Below the pieces are notes generated by a model. That model made no database searches. It was given only the letters and a program-made list of their open reading frames with translations, and was not told where the DNA came from. A DNA stretch of 24,654 nt from a virus, in IMG/VR virus record IMGVR_UViG_3300042302_000282, positions 1-24,654 of that record. One strand, given 5' to 3'. A program made the position numbers and the translations under genes. Numbering within the stretch: position 1 is the first letter of the stretch; every line of letters begins with the position of its first letter. Shown piece after piece: positions 2,417-12,264 of this stretch.

Positions 2417-3988
2417 CTAGATGGTTGACGTAAGAAACGTTAGCAGACTGCCGACCGTCAGGTCAACCCCGCCACGCTCGTTAATGCCTAGCCCGTCTAT
2501 AACAGCGTTTGCTACTGCAGTCTTCTGTTGGAGCGCGTCGTATTGACGCTGTTCAATAGAGCCCTGAACAAGAATGTCTTGAATGGTTATGGTGCTCCAC
2601 GTAGAGGACGTTCGGTTTATTCTTCCATTTCGTTGTACAGATAGCCCTGCCGACCACGGCTGGTCGTAATTAACAAGAAGGTTGGCTTGGGGCAAGTCGA
2701 CGCCATATCCCCCTGCGTCCGAAGATACAAGAACGCGTACTTCGGCTTCAGTTTGGAACTTGACTTTAGCTTTCTCTTTTTCTTTAGCATTCATTTTCCC
2801 TGTGTAGGGTACAGCCGTAAGGTGTTTAGCGGCTAAACGGTTAATGATGTGGTCCACAGACCCGAGATACGAAGAGAAGACAACGGCTTTGTAAGTGGGG
2901 TCAATATCAAGGTGGTCAGAAAGGTAAGTAATAGTGGCGTCTAACTTGGGGGTCTTATTAAGCCCCTCTAAGAGTCCATCGGAATCCAACGCGTTTATGT
3001 ACGCGCTTCCTTTGCCTTCTTGTTTACTGAAGTTTTCCGAACTGCTGGTGAGCAATCCGGGATGGGAGCAGAGCATCCTGAGCGCAGTAATTCGAGACAT
3101 GATTTGTCCACGAAGCTCATTTGCCGGGTCATTGGGGTCGTATGACTGCCCGTAATGCGCAGCAATAGAAAACCCACTACCAAACATCTGGCTTACTTCT
3201 AAGAGGAGCTCGTATAAGTCTTTTGCAATGTGGTTATACACTTTGCGCGATTTGGTGTCGAGGGGAATGAGCAGGGGCTCTCGATATACCGCGTCGGGTA
3301 GGTAGGGCTTAACGTCCTCGTCTTTTTGTGATTTACGGACCGTGTGGTCAATAAGCGCTTTGTTTAAGACAGGTAAATTTCGATAGCGCTGCACACCGCC
3401 AAAATGATTACGCACAATAAAAGTCTTATCAAAGATATCGAATCTTCCCAGAATTTCTTTATTGACGAATTGCATGATGGAGTAAATTTCTTCGGGACGC
3501 CCGTTCTCGATAGGCGTTCCCGTGAGCGCAAACCGTACTGGGATGTTTTTGGCAAGTTCTTTTACCTTCTTTGCTCTCTTTGCTCGAAAGCCTTTGATAG
3601 CGGTTGCTTCGTCACAGATGATGGCGTCAAACCCCATCTTGCTAATCGTGTCCCAATCATTGACTACCTGCTCGTAGTTCATGATGATGTAGTCATATTC
3701 GTAATACGAAAGGTAAAACGCGGCTCGTTGCTTTGGGGTGCCGTCAATGACAAGGGCTGTAGAGTCGCTGAACTTAGCAATTTCTTTCTGCCATTGGTAT
3801 TTGAGGCTGGCAAGACAAAGCACAAGAGTAGTGCGGTTTACTTCGCCCGCATCTCGAAGCATCTCTGTAGCGGCGATGGTCATCGGGGTTTTTCCCAAAC
3901 CCATTTCGTATGCAACTAAAATCTTTTTTTGCGCCACCATCTTGTCGACTGCTTCGACTTGGTAGGGCTTTAGTGTTCCGTTAAACAT
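2417..3988 (-). CDS. SNF2-type superfamily 2 DNA helicase/translocase
   Basis: This is a 523-residue ATP-dependent DNA translocase or helicase of the SF2/SNF2 type. Visible motifs, numbered from ATG 3988, are Q10 in LKPYQVEAV, Walker A YEMGLGKT (27-34), motif II ICDEATAIKG (DEAT at 126-129), motif III ALTGTPIENG (near 150), motif V around SSDAGGYGVDLPQA and motif VI VQRNGRINR near the C-terminus. Both RecA-like lobes are therefore complete. A longer reading frame begins at 4087 but would overlap the primase gene by 107 bases. ATG 3988 overlaps it by 8 bases and leaves the helicase starting just before its Q-motif, as is usual for small phage SNF2 proteins. In phages such enzymes act in replication restart, recombination or displacement of bound proteins; the exact role is not shown here. 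Confidence 0.88.
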   Translation of the reverse strand: MFNGTLKPYQVEAVDKMVAQKKILVAYEMGLGKTPMTIAATEMLRDAGEVNRTTLVLCLASLKYQWQKEIAKFSDSTALVIDGTPKQRAAFYLSYYEYDYIIMNYEQVVNDWDTISKMGFDAIICDEATAIKGFRAKRAKKVKELAKNIPVRFALTGTPIENGRPEEIYSIMQFVNKEILGRFDIFDKTFIVRNHFGGVQRYRNLPVLNKALIDHTVRKSQKDEDVKPYLPDAVYREPLLIPLDTKSRKVYNHIAKDLYELLLEVSQMFGSGFSIAAHYGQSYDPNDPANELRGQIMSRITALRMLCSHPGLLTSSSENFSKQEGKGSAYINALDSDGLLEGLNKTPKLDATITYLSDHLDIDPTYKAVVFSSYLGSVDHIINRLAAKHLTAVPYTGKMNAKEKEKAKVKFQTEAEVRVLVSSDAGGYGVDLPQANLLVNYDQPWSAGLSVQRNGRINRTSSTWSTITIQDILVQGSIEQRQYDALQQKTAVANAVIDGLGINERGGVDLTVGSLLTFLTSTI

Positions 3989-4955
3989 ATGAGCGTTCAC
4001 CGTAAAGAGCTGATTGGGCGTGTTCGATACCCCAACCAATCTCTTCATCGGTGAGGTCGCCGGGGTCTTTCTTACCCGTATCACCATAGTTGAAAAACAG
4101 AAGATTTATGCCGTATTTGACAGATAAGTTTCGGATGCTGTCGGATGCCCGTTTTCCAGCGGGGTCTAGCTTGGGGTTATCAAACGCAGCAATCACTCGA
4201 CCGGCATTGCGCAAAAACTTAATTTGGGGTTCGCTAATCGTTGAACCGCAAATAGCAACGGCTCCCGGGTATCCAGCGCTGTGTATTCTGGCGCAATCTA
4301 GCGGGGACTCTACAACGTAGACGACGGTGTCTTTCATTTGAGCCAGCCCAAATAGTGTTTTGGATTTGGCGAGACCGCCGGGGCGATTCATAAAGGTTCG
4401 GTTTACAGTTCCCTTTTCCTGCCAGCCCATCAGTTTTCCATCGGCGTCCCTAAGGGGGAGTATCCATGCGGAGGTCTTTGTGTCCCAAAGGATTCCGTAG
4501 TACTTAGCGGCACCGGGCGATATGTTGCGGGCGATAAGCGCACTTGCGGGGGGTTGGTCAAAAACAGCCAGTCGGGCTTCCGACATAGGAACGGGTCGGG
4601 GCAACTCTGTTACTCGTGAGGGAATCCTACGGAGTCTTTCAGCCAAAGACTCTGGGGTAACTTCCGCAATAGTTGCAAGCCACAGTTTGGCTGCGCTGTA
4701 ATCTGGCTCGTAAATATCTCCCCAAGATTTTGTGTAAAAATGCTTGACATCACAGACAAGGTGTAGTAAGCCGCCTTTGTAGTGGCAAGAGAAGCAGGTG
4801 TGCTGACCAGTAGTGAGGTTTACCCACCATGAGGGTGACCGGTCTTTTTTTCCGGTACGTTCCTTGTGCATGGGGCACAGTCCGTTTGCTTCATTGCCTT
4901 TGATATCAAAGTCAATATCAAGAGCCTCAAGTACCTCTTGGATTTCAATATTCAT
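3981..4955 (-). CDS. DnaG-type DNA primase (zinc-binding plus TOPRIM domains)
   Basis: This 324-residue primase makes RNA primers at the phage fork. The N-terminal zinc-binding domain has C27-P-M-H30 and C54-F-S-C57, the CHC2 pattern. The TOPRIM domain begins near VVYVVESPLD with the catalytic Glu at 216. Its acidic loop reads AFDNPKLDPAGKRA (D259, D264), where most primases have D-x-D; here three extra residues separate the Asp residues. There is no C-terminal helicase-binding domain and no helicase fusion, because the helicase is the separate gene just upstream. The start overlaps the helicase stop as TAATG, so the two are translationally coupled. The 3' end overlaps the SNF2 gene start by 8 bases. 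Family assignment is firm; whether the spaced acidic loop changes metal binding is unknown. Confidence 0.87.
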   Translation of the reverse strand: MNIEIQEVLEALDIDFDIKGNEANGLCPMHKERTGKKDRSPSWWVNLTTGQHTCFSCHYKGGLLHLVCDVKHFYTKSWGDIYEPDYSAAKLWLATIAEVTPESLAERLRRIPSRVTELPRPVPMSEARLAVFDQPPASALIARNISPGAAKYYGILWDTKTSAWILPLRDADGKLMGWQEKGTVNRTFMNRPGGLAKSKTLFGLAQMKDTVVYVVESPLDCARIHSAGYPGAVAICGSTISEPQIKFLRNAGRVIAAFDNPKLDPAGKRASDSIRNLSVKYGINLLFFNYGDTGKKDPGDLTDEEIGWGIEHAQSALYGERSYV

Positions 4956-6202
4956 TATGACATGAACGGGATGCAGTACTTACAGGTGGCTTGTTCAATC
5001 TCCTCGTGGAAACACCCGCGTTCCCACTGCCACGTAATAGAGGTGTGGGCGGGGGGACAGTTACGCGACTGGACAATGCTGAGGATGCGCAAGTTTTCTT
5101 CGTCTTCAATAGACTCAAGTCCAAGGATGACGTCTGAGTCTTGGAAGAATGATGACGAGTATCCAATGGAATCTGCGGTCACTTTTCCGCCCTTCATCTT
5201 CCACAGCAGGGTCTGTGTTGTGATTACCACAGGGATATCAAGAGCCTGCGCCACTCGTTTCAAGCCGCGGGTAATGTTGGTCAAGGCTTGTGGGGTATTG
5301 GCATCACCGGTTACTTGGTCAAGCATCAAGTAAACGCCGTCTACAAAAATGATGTCGGGATTAAGCTGGTCAGCCTTTGCCATCAAGGCGTCAATAGTCA
5401 ACCCGTTCACCGCGTCAACGAGATGGAAGGGGTGGGAAGCCTTCATTGCATCAAGCATGTCGGCGTATTGGTCTTCTTCTTGTGTGCTCAGTTGACCTCG
5501 GCGGAGTTTGTTGTGCGAAATGTGTGCACGCATAGCGTCATGTCGTTGCGCCTGTTCGTGGTTGTTCATCTCAAAGGACTGGAACATTGGGACCTTGCCT
5601 GCGGCGTGCACATTGATGGCTACCTTGAGGGCAATCTGTGACTTACCGGTCTTGGGGGGAGCAATGATTGTAATCAACTGACCGCCCTGCAAACCTGCGG
5701 TGGCATTGTCAATTGTCTTAAACCCAGTAGTAATTCCAAGAAGAACAGAGTTCTGGACATTCTCGTAATCTTTGAACCGGGAGTCCGGGTCCTTTGTCAG
5801 GTCAACGTGATGTGTCCCAACCTGACCCTGCTCATTGACCAAGGTAACCGTTTTTGACATCTCGGAAAGAGCGGCTTCATGGTCATTAGAACTCAGCTCA
5901 TCGATAGCGGTGTTGAGCCCCGCTTGGGTGATGGTACGCCTACGGAACGCCACCATCTGGTCGATGAGGTAATCGATGGTGTCCTGAACATCAAGGACCT
6001 TGAAGTTAGGGAAGTTATCCTTCACAGTTGTGTAGGTTGGGACCTCACGGTACTTGGAGTAGTGGTCGGTAACAAACCGCCAGACACGACGAAGGTCATC
6101 GTCTATTACCCACTCGTCTCGAATACCGACCTCAAGTACGGGAATGAGGTTGCGCTCAGTGATTATCTTGCTGAGTAAGCGGTATTCGTTATCGTGTGCC
6201 AT
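4955..6202 (-). CDS. Replicative DNA helicase, DnaB type
   Basis: This 415-residue helicase would unwind DNA ahead of the polymerase as a hexamer. The N-terminal helical domain covers about residues 1-110, then a linker, then a RecA-like core. It starts with ITTGFKTIDNATAGLQGGQL, typical of DnaB/RepA cores, followed by Walker A APPKTGKS (181-188) and Walker B IIFVDGVYLM (near 290). SFEMNNHE resembles the DnaB H1a region with its conserved Glu. TTQTLL and IGYSSSFFQDSDVILGLE match later core motifs. The C-terminus carries an unusual HEEIEQATCKYCIPFMS with a CxxC. ATG 6202 follows a strong site, TTCGAGGGAAAC, 18 bases after the upstream stop. A loader gene and a primase gene on either side of it support the role. 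Confidence 0.88.
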   Translation of the reverse strand: MAHDNEYRLLSKIITERNLIPVLEVGIRDEWVIDDDLRRVWRFVTDHYSKYREVPTYTTVKDNFPNFKVLDVQDTIDYLIDQMVAFRRRTITQAGLNTAIDELSSNDHEAALSEMSKTVTLVNEQGQVGTHHVDLTKDPDSRFKDYENVQNSVLLGITTGFKTIDNATAGLQGGQLITIIAPPKTGKSQIALKVAINVHAAGKVPMFQSFEMNNHEQAQRHDAMRAHISHNKLRRGQLSTQEEDQYADMLDAMKASHPFHLVDAVNGLTIDALMAKADQLNPDIIFVDGVYLMLDQVTGDANTPQALTNITRGLKRVAQALDIPVVITTQTLLWKMKGGKVTADSIGYSSSFFQDSDVILGLESIEDEENLRILSIVQSRNCPPAHTSITWQWERGCFHEEIEQATCKYCIPFMS

Positions 6203-6220: not shown

Positions 6221-6640
6221 TTATAGGTTGTTTAGTTCAAGTCCCCAAGAGCCGTATCGGGCTACGCGTTCTGGTATGTCAATAACGCCCTTTAGGTTTC
6301 CGCGATATGGGAGTTCCCCAATAAAGTCGTCAATGCTGTCGTAAAGGTTTGCGTAATTAAAAGGATTTGCTCCCCGGTTTTCTAGCCGCGCCATGAGCTT
6401 ATCCAAATGCTCTTGCGTCCACAACTCGTCGGAAAAAGCGGAGAGTTCTACCGATAATCCAAATCGAAAAGACTTGTTCCACAACAGGGATAGGGACGAG
6501 TTCTCAAGCCCCAATACTTTTCTTGAGCGCTTTGTTCCGACAATTAGTCGGCGTTCTTCTTCAATATCTGACCGAACGACTACATCAACGTTCACGATAA
6601 TACGTGGTGGTGTCTCATTAGAGATGTCCCCACCAATCAA
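6221..6640 (-). CDS. Unknown protein in the replication operon
   Basis: I do not recognise this 139-residue protein. The N-terminal half has alternating beta-type segments (RIIVNVDVVV, RRLIVGTKRSRKVL) and the C-terminal half is helical, ending in GVIDIPERVARYGSWGLELN, which looks conserved and might be a functional core. There is no membrane segment or cysteine pair. The start is a TTG at 6640 that overlaps the upstream TGA as TTGA. It is supported by GAGGTG five bases before it, and no ATG lies in this frame near the 5' end. It lies between the SWIM-type zinc protein and the DnaB-type helicase, so a helper role in replication or nucleotide metabolism is possible but unproven. Confidence 0.7.
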   Translation of the reverse strand: MIGGDISNETPPRIIVNVDVVVRSDIEEERRLIVGTKRSRKVLGLENSSLSLLWNKSFRFGLSVELSAFSDELWTQEHLDKLMARLENRGANPFNYANLYDSIDDFIGELPYRGNLKGVIDIPERVARYGSWGLELNNL

Positions 6641-6945
6641 TCGAGCACCTCAATTTTGGCGTACCTCAAAACAAACTCGCGGAAAGATGCTGCCGTTTTC
6701 ATAGCATCCACAATGTCTTCATCATCAATATCTGCTGATATTTTGATGGAGTACTTTCCGCCATTTCTTACAATCTCGCGCCTGACATACCGGAGGTGTT
6801 TGCACTTGCGGGATATTGCAAACGCGCCGCATGAACACTTCATAATTTCGTAGTCTTCATAGTCCGCTTCAACTTCGCATACTCCGTCGTTGTCAAGGAA
6901 GAGTTGAAGAGTTCGCCATTCAGCCGACATGTTCATCCCTTTCAT
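6637..6945 (-). CDS. Small SWIM-type zinc-finger protein
   Basis: This is a 102-residue protein with one clear motif: KCSCGAFAISRKCKHL, giving C37-x-C39-x8-C48-x-H50. This is the CxCx(n)CxH signature of SWIM zinc fingers, which bind DNA or protein partners and often occur with SF2 helicases, MuDR-type transposases and recombination factors. The rest is a compact alpha/beta domain with an acidic loop (ISADIDDEDIVDAM) and no catalytic motif I can name. ATG 6945 overlaps the loader stop as ATGA. A start at ATG 6930 is the alternative, since AAAGGG lies just upstream of it and would shorten the protein by five residues. Context suggests an accessory replication factor; the partner is unknown. Confidence 0.72.
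   Translation of the reverse strand: MKGMNMSAEWRTLQLFLDNDGVCEVEADYEDYEIMKCSCGAFAISRKCKHLRYVRREIVRNGGKYSIKISADIDDEDIVDAMKTAASFREFVLRYAKIEVLD
6646..6651 (-). promoter_or_regulatory. Ribosome-binding site that fixes a TTG start
   Basis: GAGGTG on the minus strand lies five bases before the TTG at 6640-6638. It sits within the last codons of the SWIM-type gene and is the main reason for accepting a TTG start for the following 139-residue protein. Confidence 0.6.
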
Positions 6946-7664
6946 GATTTACGCAAATCCTCCCCACCCAGTTTAACTCTTCTGAACGCTTCGTACGCGA
7001 ATGAAGACATCGCTTCTGAGTAGTTTGTGTTCCACGTATCCCGGTCTCGGTTTGTTGTAAGTATCGTTGGAAGCCCGTTGTCATAGCGGGCTCGCAAGAT
7101 GTCGTCAAAAGAAAAGTCGTCGTATTTTGAACCGTACTCTTTGCCAAGGTCATCGAGAACTAGCACCCGTACGTTGAGGTGGTCATCACGACTTCTTCCG
7201 TGGAACCCCTCCATCTCTTCATGAAGTTTGCGGCGTTCCTCGGAGTCCACATCAAACATTGCTTTTTTTCTAGAAAGGAGGTCAGTAAAGGTCATATAGT
7301 AAACAACCCGAGCCTTGAGGTCATAGCTCTCGGGTTTCATGTGCAGTATTTTTTGCGCCTCTGTGTCGTCATCGGGGAGCCGGTAAATGAATTCGCTGAG
7401 GGTACTTACCGCATGGGTAGTCTTTCCGACTCCCGGCTTTCCGTCAAACAAAACACCAACGCCTGTGGTGTTGAGGTTTCCGGGCTTTTTGATGATGTCC
7501 CCCGCCAAAAGTTCTCCAAGCCAATCAGTAAGGTCCGGCTTAATTGGGCTTCCCATGTGGTCAACAATGTCTGCGTAATCACGACCGTGATACCGGACAG
7601 GGATGTTTGAGTTGCGGAGTAACCAGTGGCGCTTAAGCGGTGCCAGCGTCTGTAGTGAGTGCAT
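6942..7664 (-). CDS. DnaC/IstB-type helicase loader (AAA+ ATPase)
   Basis: This 240-residue ATPase is expected to load the phage DnaB-type helicase onto origin DNA. It has Walker A GKPGVGKT (75-82), Walker B VLVLDDLGKE (D171, D172), a sensor-1-like PTILTTNRD stretch and a C-terminal AYEAFRRVK carrying a sensor-2-type Arg. The NIPVRY segment before the core is typical of the DnaC/IstB family. The frame stays open to 7790, but that would overlap the initiator gene by 158 bases. ATG 7664 limits the overlap to 32 bases and gives a normal family length; ATG 7682 is also possible. The gene directly follows the initiator-like gene and the helicase is two genes on, an O/P-like arrangement. IstB transposition helpers share the fold, but no transposase is near. 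Confidence 0.85.
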   Translation of the reverse strand: MHSLQTLAPLKRHWLLRNSNIPVRYHGRDYADIVDHMGSPIKPDLTDWLGELLAGDIIKKPGNLNTTGVGVLFDGKPGVGKTTHAVSTLSEFIYRLPDDDTEAQKILHMKPESYDLKARVVYYMTFTDLLSRKKAMFDVDSEERRKLHEEMEGFHGRSRDDHLNVRVLVLDDLGKEYGSKYDDFSFDDILRARYDNGLPTILTTNRDRDTWNTNYSEAMSSFAYEAFRRVKLGGEDLRKS

Positions 7665-8664
7665 TTTCCAATTTCTGCTCATAGCGCTTGAGTGCGCTTC
7701 GTCCCGCGATTGACTTGTCAAACTTTCGTCCGTCAGAAGCATAAACATACTCGTCCAGAGGGGATGCTGTTGGTGACACGCCGGAGGCAAGACCTGTGAG
7801 CCGTTGGTTGGGCTCGAGACCGAGCATCTCGTACGCCTTGCTGAGGTGGGTTTTAAACATGTTGAGGTACCGACCGTGGATGCGGTGCGCCTCGGAGTCA
7901 GCGTTCTTCAGGTTACGGTCGTCGTCGAAGAAGAGGCGCATGAGCTGGAGCTCAACTTCGGGGGACGTCCCGTACTGGCGACGGTAGTTCGATAGCGCAC
8001 CACGAATGGCGGTGGTGTTTACTAGCCCCGGCGTATACGGGAAGCGCTTGCCGAGTTGCTGTGAGAACTCTGCTGCAACGTCATTGGTTGTCCACTCCGA
8101 CTCCGGTCGAAGATTGCGAGTACTCGATTTACGCTTATCGACCTTGGGCTTGGGCTGACCGCCATCCATCTCATCTTCAAACAGACCGACTCCGGCAATA
8201 CCGTCGTCGTCCTCATTCCAGCGTGAAACCACAATCTCCTCTCCGGACGCGCCAGCGGCGCGTACCAAGAAATACGAAGTATTTCTTGTATTACTTACCT
8301 GACTACCAGTAGTCATAGTAGTCATAGTATCACTAGGCATATAGTCAGCTGTTGACCCCACAACCCTGTGGGATGGCTCCGGCTCCGATTCCACAAGGCT
8401 GTGGGATGGTAAAACGAGTTGATAGACGTTCTTGGACCACTTCCCAAGGTTGCGTTTTGTCCGTATGGTCTCGAGCAGACCCGCCTCTTCAAGACCGCGG
8501 AATGCGCGACGAAGGCTCTCCGTACTGTACCCGGTGAGCACCGACAGCTCGTCTGTGGTGACCTTAACTTGGGCTTGGGCGTCCGCAAGATGGTACAACG
8601 AAACGACCGTCTTAAACTCTGCGGGAGATAGCTCGGTTGAAAAAAACTCAGGTGGAAGGCTCAT
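7633..8664 (-). CDS. Winged-helix replication initiator-like protein
   Basis: This is a 343-residue protein, probably the phage replication initiator (functional equivalent of lambda O or DnaD-type proteins). Residues about 10-75 form a winged helix: LSPAEFKTVVSLYHLA, then VTTDELSVLTGYSTESLRRA as the HTH and FRGLEEAGLLETIR. Residues 85-185 are low-complexity and charged, with an 11-residue repeat (PSHSLVE then PSHRVVG), MTTMTTG and acidic runs. The C-terminal part (about 190-300) is helical and may contact the loader. ATG 8664 lies 21 bases after the membrane-protein stop with only a weak AGG-type site. The low-complexity middle coincides with DNA repeats and an AT-rich dip that look like an origin. 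Function rests on the HTH and on adjacency to the loader, helicase and primase. Confidence 0.7.
   Translation of the reverse strand: MSLPPEFFSTELSPAEFKTVVSLYHLADAQAQVKVTTDELSVLTGYSTESLRRAFRGLEEAGLLETIRTKRNLGKWSKNVYQLVLPSHSLVESEPEPSHRVVGSTADYMPSDTMTTMTTGSQVSNTRNTSYFLVRAAGASGEEIVVSRWNEDDDGIAGVGLFEDEMDGGQPKPKVDKRKSSTRNLRPESEWTTNDVAAEFSQQLGKRFPYTPGLVNTTAIRGALSNYRRQYGTSPEVELQLMRLFFDDDRNLKNADSEAHRIHGRYLNMFKTHLSKAYEMLGLEPNQRLTGLASGVSPTASPLDEYVYASDGRKFDKSIAGRSALKRYEQKLENALTTDAGTA
8266..8288. repeat. Perfect 10-bp palindrome inside the initiator gene
   Basis: CAAGAAATAC (8266-8275) and GTATTTCTTG (8279-8288) are exact reverse complements with GAA between them. The element marks the edge of an AT-rich stretch within the initiator gene and may be part of a replication origin. 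Confidence 0.75.
8308..8334. repeat. 9-bp tandem repeat in AT-rich stretch
   Basis: AGTAGTCAT occurs at 8308-8316 and 8317-8325, followed by a degenerate copy AGTATCACT (8326-8334). It encodes MTTMTT of the initiator. Bases 8281-8340 are 35% GC by hand count (21/60), against 58% in the 60 bases on either side. Confidence 0.7.
8358..8409. repeat. Two 19-bp palindromic iteron-like repeats
   Basis: CCACAACCCTGTGGGATGG (8358-8376) and CCACAAGGCTGTGGGATGG (8391-8409) match at 17 of 19 bases. Each holds an inverted repeat, CCACA-4-TGTGG, and their starts are 33 bp apart, about three helical turns. They lie in coding sequence, but third codon positions are also conserved, so selection on the DNA is possible. 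With the neighbouring AT-rich repeats they resemble initiator-binding iterons of a lambda-type origin. The repeats are seen directly; the origin function is inferred. Confidence 0.6.
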
Positions 8665-8685: not shown

Positions 8686-8964
8686 CTATGTCAGTCTGCG
8701 TGACATGACCTGCTGAATTTGAACCGGACGATTTATCCAACGCATAATAATAAGCGAAATAAATCCGGCAGCCAATGACGCGACAAGCAACGACCAATCG
8801 GATACGCCAAGAATCCAACAGAATAGGGCGGCAAGAGGTGCCGATAAAATACCCTTTATAGTAGGCGAAGGAAACGCAGTAAATCTCTCGAGCAAAGTTC
8901 CGATAGCTTCTGTTGTAAATCCAACAGCCATTCCAGAGATGATGATGTTCAGTAATAGTTCCAT
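8686..8964 (-). CDS. Small membrane protein, possible holin
   Basis: This is a 92-residue protein with three likely membrane segments: about 4-23 (LLNIIISGMAVGFTTEAI), 37-53 (KGILSAPLAALFCWILG) and 58-77 (SLLVASLAAGFISLIIMRW), then a basic tail ending SRRLT. The size, three segments and basic tail fit class I holins, which permeabilise the inner membrane at lysis. It follows the last tail gene by 9 bases. However, no separate endolysin gene is visible in the window, so the holin call is tentative and another membrane protein is possible. ATG 8964 has no clear ribosome-binding site; translation may depend on coupling to the upstream gene. Confidence 0.55.
   Translation of the reverse strand: MELLLNIIISGMAVGFTTEAIGTLLERFTAFPSPTIKGILSAPLAALFCWILGVSDWSLLVASLAAGFISLIIMRWINRPVQIQQVMSRRLT
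8855..8883 (-). promoter_or_regulatory. Weak sigma-70-like promoter candidate before the replication genes
   Basis: On the minus strand TTTACT (-35, 4 of 6 matches to consensus) and TATAAA (-10, 5 of 6) are separated by 17 bases, inside the membrane-protein gene and about 190 bases before the initiator start. It was sought because no intergenic gap separates tail from replication genes. One such match in this length of DNA could easily be chance. Confidence 0.2.
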
Positions 8965-8973
8965 AGGACTATT

Positions 8974-11900
8974 CTACGAGGTAAACCCTTTTAGTTTTTG
9001 TCCGCTTAGGAGTTCCGCGATACCCGATACAAGCTCTACTTGGTACGCCGTATTTGACGGAAGGACACTTTCTATGTTGGTGATTACTTGGGGAAGTTTC
9101 TTTTGTTCATTTTGGTACAGGTGCGAAGGCGAGTTGTTTGCAGTCCCGTACTTCCAGTTGGCGTCTGCATAGGAGCCGTCAAAGTAATCGCTAGCGGAGA
9201 ACCGCGGCTCAAGCTGGGCAAGGTCGACACTAACAAGTTCTGTGTTGTCAAACGTAAAGACAGGAGTCAGCGTAAGGTTGGTAAAGTTTGTTGGCAAGTA
9301 CAGGCTGACCTGAAAACGATACCACTCCGAGGTTAGTCGCGGAGCGGCTGCCCACGTAACGGTTCCTCCGCTCACGTAAGTTCCTGTAGCAGTTGCAAGA
9401 ACACTAAAGCTGTTGCCTGTTGTCGATAGTACCGGCGTAGCTACTCCGTCTAAGTTGTACCCACTGGGCGTAACCGAAGAGACTACAACAGAAGCGCCAA
9501 TGGGAGGTACGCCAAAAGGAGCGGGGTCAATGGTGTACGTCACTACTCCACCAGCTGCCTGTACGTTTGAGATAGTCGTGCTGTTCCGGTACTGGCGGTC
9601 TGCCTGCGCACGAAGCGTGTAGGCACCCCCCGAGCTAAATGCTCCCGTGTGACTGCCTGCAATAGTAAACGTGGTTGCCGTTGCGGCTATAACGGTAGTT
9701 TCAGCGGAGTTGTAGCCTGAAGGCGTCATCCCCGAGACAGTCACCTTGTCGCCTACGTACACCCTTCCGCTAGAGGTATAGGTAACAGAAGTGCCGTTGC
9801 CGACAGCGCCTGAGATACTACCCGTAGAGGTGGCTGTAAGGCTCATTGCGACGTTTGCCGCTTCGGCAGAATAAACAGTGTGTACTCCGGATTGAGTTCC
9901 CGCGGTCGTAATAGCTGTTCCCGCGGTCGCGTTTGCTGCCGAAGTTGCTAACCTGAAGGTGCTGCTAGTAACAACAATCGCATAGTAACGTCCGGCTGTA
10001 GTTACGCCCGTCGGTAGTGCCCCTGTGGTCGTAAAGTAAACAACATCTCCTGTGGTTAGCCCATGTGCTGCACAGGTCACAACTCCCGGTGCGGCAATCG
10101 TCATTGTTGCCGTACCAAGTCCGGAGGACTTTGCATACATGGAAAACGTGTAAAACTGTCCAATAGAAACGTCTTTTTCGTCAATCTCCGCGGTTAGGGT
10201 GTTGTCACCCACGTAACGCCCCATGGTGACGTAAGCAAGACCAGCGTCCGTAGCGCTCGGTCCGGGGGTGTTAGCGCCAATAGTCACTTTAGTTTTAGTG
10301 ACGCTTTGCCCAACAGTCCACGAGGTAAGGGCAGCTACGGCATCTGCGCCTTCAAAGGAGGGGTTGTAGATAAGGTTCTCTTTAGTTGGGGCTAGTCGAG
10401 CAATAGCACCGCGGGCTTCGTAGTAGTTGTGGTTTACAGCACCCGTACCAGAGGCAACTCCTACCGTGGTGTTTCTAACGGTAAATTGAGACGTAGTTGC
10501 CGAGGTTACTATTACATCTGCAAGATTTAGCGAAGTTCCGGACCCGGTCCCCAAGCCCGTAACGCTTACACGGTCTCCCACCGACAAGGCGGGAGTAACA
10601 ACGCTGCCGTTGGAAGTTACCGTTGTTACGGAGTTACTGCAAGTGTAAGTGACGGTAGCCCCATCCCCGGTAGCCGCTGTAATTGCAAACTGACGAGACA
10701 CTTGGAATAGGTCAAGGTAGTACGTTCCGGCAGCACTGAACGAAAGAGTAATGCCAAGATAAACAGCTCCGGCTGGAGCGGTGGCTGACATGGACTGCTT
10801 AGTCCACGTTGAGCTAGCGGAAAAAGTACCGGTTCCTGTAGAGATAAATACACCTGAACGGTCGTACCATTTAAGGCTGTAAGTTACCGTCGAGGTCGCA
10901 GCCGTTTTGTGGTAAAAACTGAGCGTGTAAGGATTTCCCGTTATTACGGGGATGCCTTGAGTTACGGGGTTTTCGTTGCCAATGTTTAGGCTTACATCGG
11001 CGGATGAAGTAACAAGTTTGCCAACAAACTGAGTGTCAACACTGTTTGGTTCTGAGGTCGTGGGGAGCGTAGTGTTGTCTGCGGTCAGGGTTCCCGCACC
11101 CAGTACTCTCCAGAAACTATGAGTACTATTCTCAAAGACTTGTGCGGTACCCCCAGACGACCATGCGGTACCGTTAGGGACTGTTGTCTCAAGAGTAAAT
11201 TGCGAGTTAGTACGCCGCACAATTACCGCCGAGGAACTGTTGTATGAACTTGGGGTAACACCCGTGACAGTTACCACCTGCCCTAACAGAAACTGGTTAG
11301 GAGCCGTGTAAGTTGCATACGTACCGTTGCTAGACGCCCCCGTTATGTTTGCCGTGTTTGACGCTACTGACTGGCTATACGATGACCAGTCTCGAAAAGT
11401 ACTGTCTTGATTGGACAGGAAAAGGTTGGGAGAAGTAGCTACGGTTGCGTTGTACCCTGTCAATGCTTCTAGGTAAGTTGACAGACCGGAGGCGGTCCCT
11501 TTGTGGCTATAGATGTACTGAGCTTCACGAACTAATCGGCGAAGATACCGCGTCGAAGGTCGGTTCTGAACTAAGGCGTCTAGTTCGTACGCCTTAACAG
11601 ACAGAAGCTCGGGAGAATAGTTTGACGCATCATGCCTAGGTTGCAACAGGTCAATGTAAGTCAAAACCTCATCTATCGTGTATGAAAATCCATAAAGAAA
11701 GTTTGACAGGTCAGAGTTTGGGTCTACCTCATCTAAAGTTCCGTTGGAGTCAGAAGTAAATACACGGGGCAAAAGGTCCATGAGCTTTTCGTGCGTGTTT
11801 CTGGTGCGCCCCAGCATTACGCCAGAACCTTCTACGGCAGAAAGCTGAGTTTCATGTTTTCCGGCAATAAGGACCGTAACATCCCCAACCTGAAACCACT

Positions 11901-12264
11901 CTTGGTCGCTAATTAAAAACAGCCAAATAGAGTAGTAAGTAAATTTTCCCGGGGTTAGGGGCACGTAGGTTGTAGGGTCTGTTGCGGTACTTACGGAATC
12001 GGTAAAGTATCTTGGCGCACGGGTTGTCTGAGCTACTTGCTCATCTATAAGAATAACGCCGTCTTCAGAAGTGTCTGGAACGCCAATCTGGTTGCGCACA
12101 AGCCTCATACGGCTGTATGCGCCAACAGGGCTCAACCAAGAAAGGTCAACCTCAGTGTAGTCAACTGCTGTTGCTGTAAACGGAGCAACGTTAAGTGACG
12201 CAAGACCACCAGCTCCGTATATAAATGTTGCGTCGGCATATAACCGCGTTCCATATCTTGGCAC
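8974..12264 (-). CDS. Large baseplate-fibre protein with P2 gpI-like domain
   Basis: This is a 1096-residue virion protein. Residues about 1-135 form a beta-rich, fibronectin-like start. Residues about 160-275 resemble the P2 gpI baseplate domain: LMDLLPRVF, then LSNFLYGFSYTIDEVLTYID, LRRLVREAQYIYSHKGT and ASGLSTYLEALTGYNATV. A long beta-rich shaft follows with at least four copies of a phage repeat built on 'VTVTGVTPSSYN' (variants VTVSGMTPSGYN and VVVSSVTPSGYN). A NLIYNPSFEGAD stretch starts a carbohydrate-binding-like jelly-roll. The C-terminal ASDYFDGSYADANWKYG is a common fibre motif. The start is GTG 12264 with AGGAG nine bases before it. It probably anchors to the baseplate by the gpI part and reaches to the cell surface by the rest. 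Such fusions make exact homologs hard to assign. Confidence 0.82.
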   Translation of the reverse strand: MPRYGTRLYADATFIYGAGGLASLNVAPFTATAVDYTEVDLSWLSPVGAYSRMRLVRNQIGVPDTSEDGVILIDEQVAQTTRAPRYFTDSVSTATDPTTYVPLTPGKFTYYSIWLFLISDQEWFQVGDVTVLIAGKHETQLSAVEGSGVMLGRTRNTHEKLMDLLPRVFTSDSNGTLDEVDPNSDLSNFLYGFSYTIDEVLTYIDLLQPRHDASNYSPELLSVKAYELDALVQNRPSTRYLRRLVREAQYIYSHKGTASGLSTYLEALTGYNATVATSPNLFLSNQDSTFRDWSSYSQSVASNTANITGASSNGTYATYTAPNQFLLGQVVTVTGVTPSSYNSSSAVIVRRTNSQFTLETTVPNGTAWSSGGTAQVFENSTHSFWRVLGAGTLTADNTTLPTTSEPNSVDTQFVGKLVTSSADVSLNIGNENPVTQGIPVITGNPYTLSFYHKTAATSTVTYSLKWYDRSGVFISTGTGTFSASSTWTKQSMSATAPAGAVYLGITLSFSAAGTYYLDLFQVSRQFAITAATGDGATVTYTCSNSVTTVTSNGSVVTPALSVGDRVSVTGLGTGSGTSLNLADVIVTSATTSQFTVRNTTVGVASGTGAVNHNYYEARGAIARLAPTKENLIYNPSFEGADAVAALTSWTVGQSVTKTKVTIGANTPGPSATDAGLAYVTMGRYVGDNTLTAEIDEKDVSIGQFYTFSMYAKSSGLGTATMTIAAPGVVTCAAHGLTTGDVVYFTTTGALPTGVTTAGRYYAIVVTSSTFRLATSAANATAGTAITTAGTQSGVHTVYSAEAANVAMSLTATSTGSISGAVGNGTSVTYTSSGRVYVGDKVTVSGMTPSGYNSAETTVIAATATTFTIAGSHTGAFSSGGAYTLRAQADRQYRNSTTISNVQAAGGVVTYTIDPAPFGVPPIGASVVVSSVTPSGYNLDGVATPVLSTTGNSFSVLATATGTYVSGGTVTWAAAPRLTSEWYRFQVSLYLPTNFTNLTLTPVFTFDNTELVSVDLAQLEPRFSASDYFDGSYADANWKYGTANNSPSHLYQNEQKKLPQVITNIESVLPSNTAYQVELVSGIAELLSGQKLKGFTS

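Follow-up and report, generated by a model that had tools for sequence, protein, structure and literature searches.

A candidate replication origin between the two domains of an initiator gene in uncultivated phages

Origins within initiator genes and the window locus

In several described replicons, the origin of replication lies within the gene of its own initiator. Phage lambda carries its origin in the middle of gene O, between the DNA-binding and C-terminal parts of the protein. Iteron number in lambda-type origins varies between phages, two iterons and the AT tract suffice for unwinding, and the origins of Stx phages have six iterons (PMC7466680). In the RepA_N plasmid pSK41, the N domain of the initiator binds boxes in the middle of rep, and the linker encoded by the origin is dispensable; in its relative pPR9, a hybrid, the N domain and the origin were swapped together for an HTH_36 domain (PMC5703833). 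The Bacillus phage SPP1 uses host DnaG and has one origin, oriL, within gene 38 and a second, oriR (PMC6316719). Finally, pIGRK makes two in-frame products, RepR and RepR', the short one arising from an internal start and acting as a DNA-binding inhibitor (PMC6854812).

The window, by which we mean the whole linear stretch of DNA analyzed here, is IMG/VR record IMGVR_UViG_3300042302_000282, 24,654 bases long and probably a fragment. Its initiator gene (7633-8664, minus strand) encodes 343 amino acids and was assigned from its open reading frame and translation, O-like PHROG matches and an AlphaFold2 model. The O-like matches are weak though consistent (E 2e-7 and 1e-4); PHROG 678, which accounts for the second, matches 21 of 23 members, its best stretch (12-143) indicating that it matches through the winged-helix half. 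Pfam HTH_Crp_2 and HTH_36 both match the N-terminal region, a winged helix of the CAP/MarR type. AlphaFold2 models the winged helix (residues 1-83) and a helical C-terminal domain (180-343) with confidence, and the origin-coded linker between them (about 89-162, pLDDT < 50) is predicted to be disordered. The C-terminal domain matched no PDB sequence, solved fold, Pfam or PHROG family, its single strong fold match being a helix-turn-helix protein of an uncultured phage.

Past the initiator come a DnaC-like helicase loader, two small genes, a DnaB helicase, a primase and an SNF2-type helicase. The loader (6942-7682, minus strand, start codon inferred; PHROG 50, E 9e-25) directly follows the initiator and was found in 16/16 related records compared. 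The original prediction had likened this arrangement to P following O in lambda, which is right for position and wrong for homology. The DnaB-like replicative helicase (4955-6202, minus strand; Pfam DnaB_C, E 4e-30) was found in 16 of 17 related records and the DnaG-like primase, with a CHC2 zinc ribbon and Toprim (3981-4955, minus strand), in 15 of 17. The initiator, loader, two small genes, DnaB and primase recur jointly in the related records searched, the misses being short fragments. The small genes (6221-6640 and 6637-6945, minus strand) lie between loader and DnaB in all 16 records compared and match nothing in Pfam or PHROG; the first shows 50-77% identity across related records. Their products are putative replisome proteins. 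The nearest cultured DnaB helicases are those of Streptomyces phages, at about 33-34% identity, a hint that the hosts are actinobacteria.

Immediately before the initiator is a 92-amino-acid open reading frame (8686-8964, minus strand), probably a membrane protein, and similar small genes precede the initiator in L004, L014 and L017; in the Streptomyces phage LuckySocke, a 'membrane protein' comes after the tail gene. Further upstream lies a 1096-residue open reading frame (8974-12264, minus strand), and a structural-looking gene occupies this place in L004 and L017.

The segment of the initiator gene that encodes the linker is most likely a replication origin working like lambda ori, SPP1 oriL or pSK41 ori, a reading that we base on comparison of sequences. 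As in lambda, it lies mid-gene between the DNA-binding and C-terminal parts, carries palindromic 19-bp iterons in variable number (two in the window, up to four in relatives), has an AT-rich tract on one side and is followed by the loader gene. Unlike the closely packed iterons of lambda, those of the window family are spaced at 33 bp, and the family differs further in its constant box, two covarying hairpins, internal start and split-gene lineage, in its DnaC-like loader and phage-encoded DnaB and primase, and in iteron classes that change together with the recognition helix. With pSK41 it shares an N-terminal winged helix, here predicted to bind mid-gene boxes, and an origin-coded linker before the C-terminal domain; the N domain and origin also appear to move as a module, as in pSK41 and pPR9. 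The full initiator model has its top PDB matches, all weak (E from 0.003), in 4pql, 4pt7 and 5kbj, which we take to be RepA_N-type initiator N-domains, 5kbj being a Rep-DNA complex. However, no RepA_N Pfam domain is found in the window initiator, its C-terminal domain has no solved-fold counterpart, and the family has hairpins, a box and a phage-encoded loader, helicase and primase. In RepA_N replicons, the C-terminal domain binds host DnaG.

SPP1 likewise has repeats and an AT-rich element inside the initiator gene and the order initiator, loader, DnaB-type helicase, but a second copy of the hairpin-1 element was not found in six contigs of 90-95 kb; sites with iterons only were searched for in the window. 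Like pIGRK, the window gene is predicted to give two in-frame products, with an internal start yielding the shorter; unlike that of pIGRK, this short form would lack the winged helix and consist of the C-terminal domain. We file the window origin under no known system, since its loader is not lambda P, there is no RepA_N domain and no second origin was seen. What is new in the family with respect to all of these is the box, the pair of covarying hairpins, the series of matched helices and iterons, and the split or fused gene.

An ordered set of DNA elements

The two repeats on which the original prediction was built are exactly as it described them. CCACAACCCTGTGGGATGG (8358-8376) and CCACAAGGCTGTGGGATGG (8391-8409) agree at 17 of 19 bases, start 33 bp apart and both contain CCACA-N4-TGTGG, of which they are the only exact matches in the 24.6-kb window. 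On the minus strand, 8391-8409 is iteron 1, the palindromic 19-bp CCATCCCACAGCCTTGTGG, with counterparts in L004, L009, L014, L015 and others, and 8358-8376 is iteron 2, CCATCCCACAGGGTTGTGG, 33 bp from iteron 1. The last half-site adjoins a constant box, TCAACAGCTGA (8345-8355, minus strand), at which 42 of 48 representatives have TCAACA. The box is the first part of an AT-rich segment of 67 nt and 37% GC (8289-8355, minus strand), a candidate unwinding element that contains a 9-bp tandem (8309-8328) and an inverted repeat with 6-bp arms (8300-8315). GC content is 33% over 8262-8330 and 49% over the whole window. Within the gene, the 60-mer with the lowest GC content begins at 8267, and only 0.7% of the window's 60-mers are equally low.

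The AT-rich stretch, its 9-bp tandem and the perfect 10-bp palindrome at its end had all been placed correctly. The palindrome is more than an end marker: it is a hairpin-type element that covaries, and another hairpin lies next to it. This hairpin 1 (8266-8288, minus strand) reads CAAGAAATAC-TTC-GTATTTCTTG, with perfect 10-bp arms, and on the plus strand CAAGAAATAC-GAA-GTATTTCTTG, with a C-GAA-G triloop. Hairpin 2 (8247-8263, minus strand), which abuts it, was absent from the original list; it has the form ACGCGCC-N3-GGCGCGT, with GCT as its loop. Beyond the hairpins lie a predicted internal ribosome-binding site, AGAGGAG (8236-8242), and a GTG start (8230-8232), together spanning 8230-8242 on the minus strand, which would give a C-terminal form of residues 145-343.

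As a null for the iterons and the stem, we made 20,000 synonymous-codon shuffles of the initiator gene. Two copies of CCACAN4TGTGG appeared in 0/20,000 shuffles, the 10-bp stem was kept in 0/20,000, and both sites were alike at 17 or more of 19 bases in 3/20,000. Since synonymous shuffles almost never produce them, protein coding does not explain the repeats and the stem. The repeats are in frame, 33 bp being 11 codons, and could be imagined as a coding feature only, a repeated PSHxxVE linker peptide. We give this notion practically no credence, in view not only of the shuffles but also of relatives whose iteron class has switched to the unrelated linker peptides PCLxPEAS and PCFxxET with the palindromes kept, of split genes in which box, AT segment and hairpins are non-coding, and of the predicted disorder of the linker.

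Scanning by protein first brought up L004 and L005, two relatives at 44-47% identity, and wider scans gave 73 loci by protein and 31 by DNA pattern (box and hairpin). Removal of near copies left 48 representatives below 90% DNA identity, which are related to each other. All relatives are uncultivated phages: the initiator was unmatched in the cultured-phage collection, by DNA or protein, and no prophage carrying it was found in 84,980 prokaryote genomes. Eight of the 48 (L095, L097, L102, L107, L108, L111, L114 and L118) were fetched by a pattern that covers the box and some of hairpin 1; the frequency of hairpin 1 is therefore also given without them. In L004 and L005, four repeats resembling ACCATCACACAATTCTGTGG follow one another every 33 bp (34 bp at one step in L005, from a one-base insertion), and after them come an AT-rich stretch and a hairpin, GTAAATAC-TTC-GTATTTAC. 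The insertion in L005 (2066-2200) lies ahead of the third iteron and puts the initiator out of frame with the DNA elements intact; it may be an assembly error.

A common order runs through the 48 representatives: winged-helix domain, iterons, the box TCAACAGCTG, AT-rich segment, hairpin 1, hairpin 2, ribosome-binding site with in-frame start, and C-terminal domain. The motif RTKRNLGK precedes the iterons. These number from 0 to 4, mostly 33 bp apart, with four in L004 and L009, and in several relatives what remains is a half-site adjoining the constant box (L075, L095, L108, L118 and the split genes). The original description of a compact, two-iteron version thus fits the window member and not the relatives. 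The AT-rich segment including the box measures 40-104 nt, and its mean GC content of 33.5%, compared with 50.9% downstream, is the lower of the two in all 40 representatives that bear hairpin 1. The persistence of repeats and AT dip in relatives while the encoded linker varies, which the original prediction had made its main check, therefore came out in its favor, and the DNA-level selection that it suggested is borne out by relatives and shuffle null alike. Comparison shows iterons, box, AT-rich segment, hairpin 1 and hairpin 2 to be an ordered set under DNA-level selection, and it supports the reading of an origin embedded in the initiator gene.

Relatives that keep the initiator without the full repeats, which the original prediction had counted against itself, do exist; they retain the box, the AT segment and mostly hairpin 1. 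With hairpin 1 missing from 8 of 48 representatives and full iterons from several, neither is strictly needed, and what is essential probably comes down to the box, the AT segment and one half-site or more. Cumulative GC skew, another check proposed, neither helped nor clearly refuted the reading: in six contigs of 90-95 kb it follows gene direction, with no extreme at the origin. In the same six contigs, hairpin 1 with 10-bp arms occurs exactly once per contig, always at this place, one of them having one further 7-bp stem.

The palindromic repeats might instead be operators through which the winged-helix protein represses or tunes its own operon, the AT-rich and hairpin elements being unrelated to replication. 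Autoregulation by initiators is common, and the winged helix, of CAP/MarR type with a CAP-like recognition helix, would suit such a role. pIGRK offers an example (PMC6854812). However, the sites are some 250 bp into the coding region, they invariably keep to one side of the AT-rich segment and two hairpins, and they adjoin the loader-helicase-primase cassette. Autoregulation could also coexist with origin function. We regard an operator role in place of an origin as quite improbable.

Hairpins 1 and 2

Hairpin 1, with arms of at least 8 bp around T[T/A]C, is present in 40/48 representatives, or in 32/40 when those found by protein are taken by themselves; arms this long arose in 105/22,500 synonymous shuffles. 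Across the 40 representatives, the first eight base pairs are Watson-Crick without exception (320/320, with no G-T) even though six of these eight positions vary, and at least 39 paired, compensating changes map to the C-terminal domain tree. Hairpin 2 lies within a few bases of hairpin 1 and likewise keeps its pairing while its sequence is free (229 Watson-Crick and 2 G-T of 231 pairs, with G-T allowed); many of its stems are short, and in single members the excess over synonymous shuffles is modest.

RNA stems tolerate G-U. The lack of G-T pairs in hairpin 1 thus points to DNA, and not RNA, as the selected form. This bears on the idea that the hairpins act in mRNA, for example by timing translation from the internal start, with iterons and AT segment still forming an origin. 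In keeping with that idea, the hairpins mostly lie 28-57 nt ahead of a conserved ribosome-binding site and start codon. Against it stand the G-T counts (0/320 and 2/231), the lack of any Rfam match for the origin hairpins, and the constant T[T/A]C center of hairpin 1, whose complement on the opposite DNA strand is a GNA triloop; we hold an mRNA role to be unlikely, if less so than the other alternatives. On the plus strand, the loop is C-GAA-G in the window and C-GTA-G in relatives with TAC. GNA triloops closed by G-C pairs form unusually stable single-strand DNA hairpins (PMC4686876), and by analogy the same stability may hold with the AT-rich stem of hairpin 1. DNA folding energies, with the parameters at hand, did not separate GNA from other triloops.

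As a 23-bp perfect palindrome found once per genome, hairpin 1 could also be taken for a site of site-specific recombination, resolution or telomere formation that is no part of an origin. Its arms change freely with pairing kept, unlike sequence-specific recombinase sites, and it always lies 40-104 nt from the start of the box, so that we consider such a function very improbable. The idea of a site tied to the primase found no support either: initiators of the same family without hairpin 1 (L073, L056, L060, L071, L037 and L078-L080) occur, and members without it keep the same primase family, with a zinc-ribbon part that is not distinctly different.

Recognition helices, split genes and a proposed mechanism

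Each class of iteron half-site pairs with one residue pattern at initiator positions 48, 49, 52 and 53 (window numbering). GTGG goes with [T/S/A/E]E..RR, GAGGCA with RE..RR, GAGGG with [P/A]E..R[R/K] and YTGGCA with RE..R[L/V/I/K], while GAAACA is matched by RT..[W/F/Y]R, GRACA by RT..SK, TGTCAC by DS..RR and GGTAAA by DK..RT. The iteron class has changed at least 14 times on the C-domain tree, a count that is the one way in which the association takes relatedness into account. In a profile alignment, the initiator recognition helix is set against that of CAP, SRETVGR. CAP residues 180, 181 and 185 read the TGTGA half-site, and the GTGG class retains the Glu and last Arg of the CAP helix. L079 and L080 are nearly the same in the C-terminal domain and AT region and differ in both wing and iterons; in six pairs of different iteron class whose C domains are at least 60% alike, the N domains average 26%. 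Differing wings and iterons on like C domains are what joint exchange of a DNA-binding domain and its sites would be expected to give.

In L085, L087 and L097/L104, the winged-helix gene ends just before the box and the C-terminal gene begins beyond hairpin 2, which leaves the origin DNA of these phages non-coding. The split is one event on the C-domain tree. A Shine-Dalgarno match of at least 4 bases with an in-frame start (ATG, GTG or TTG) is present in 44 of the 46 representatives scored, two split ones included, compared with 15.6 expected from synonymous shuffles. The C-terminal domain is thus probably also made alone, from the internal start; the GTG of the window, with its short spacing to the ribosome-binding site, is among the weaker cases.

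The DnaB-primase-helicase order is also present in two Streptomyces phages, BRock and LuckySocke, but their large gene close to where the initiator would be expected does not encode one of this kind. At or next to their DnaC-like loader genes are small genes, BRock gp115 (L159:2712-3173) and LuckySocke gp109 (L160:2883-3356), that match part of the C-terminal domain in a single hhalign comparison (E 0.003, 63 columns, low probability score). These may be a stand-alone form of the domain in phages that can be grown.

Conserved order, covarying hairpin, matched iterons and the non-coding split form together indicate DNA under selection, and we find it highly probable that the origin sits within the initiator gene, in the stretch between the two domains, and works broadly as follows. 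Two winged-helix domains would read the two halves of each palindromic iteron through residues 48, 49, 52 and 53, aligned with the part of the CAP recognition helix that reads bases. Once assembled, the initiator complex would melt the adjoining AT-rich segment. Tethered by the disordered linker that the origin encodes, the C-terminal domain would recruit the DnaC-like loader, a contact that we infer from gene order, and the loader would place the phage DnaB helicase, with the phage primase following. Hairpins 1 and 2 would bound the melted stretch, where they probably extrude as a cruciform or as single-strand hairpins; that they help first priming or halt unwinding is the least certain part of the scheme. 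The C-terminal domain would probably also be produced by itself, as a second product from the internal start just past the hairpins, and it has a gene of its own in one lineage.

More tentatively, we can picture the locus as a swappable replicator cassette. A CAP-like helix and its matching iterons would be exchanged together, whereas a melting module would stay fixed between the halves of a bipartite initiator; it would comprise the box, the AT segment and the pair of DNA hairpins, of which hairpin 1 has a GNA triloop on one strand. The C-terminal half would also be made separately, the initiator being two genes in one lineage, and the hairpins would serve as DNA structures for starting the first primers. 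This fuller picture is possible, though we would not yet favor it.

Skew and homology often fail as guides to the origins of uncultivated phages, which makes these difficult to find. In this family, the combination of box, AT segment and covarying hairpin in an initiator gene served as a sequence rule that found further members by DNA alone and located one copy of hairpin 1 per genome, giving phages that cannot be grown a testable origin candidate. The natural series of recognition helices and iterons, set beside CAP, is a data set on how winged helices choose their DNA, and it also informs how a replicon changes its identity. The split and fused forms, in turn, show how an origin can sit between two halves of a protein.
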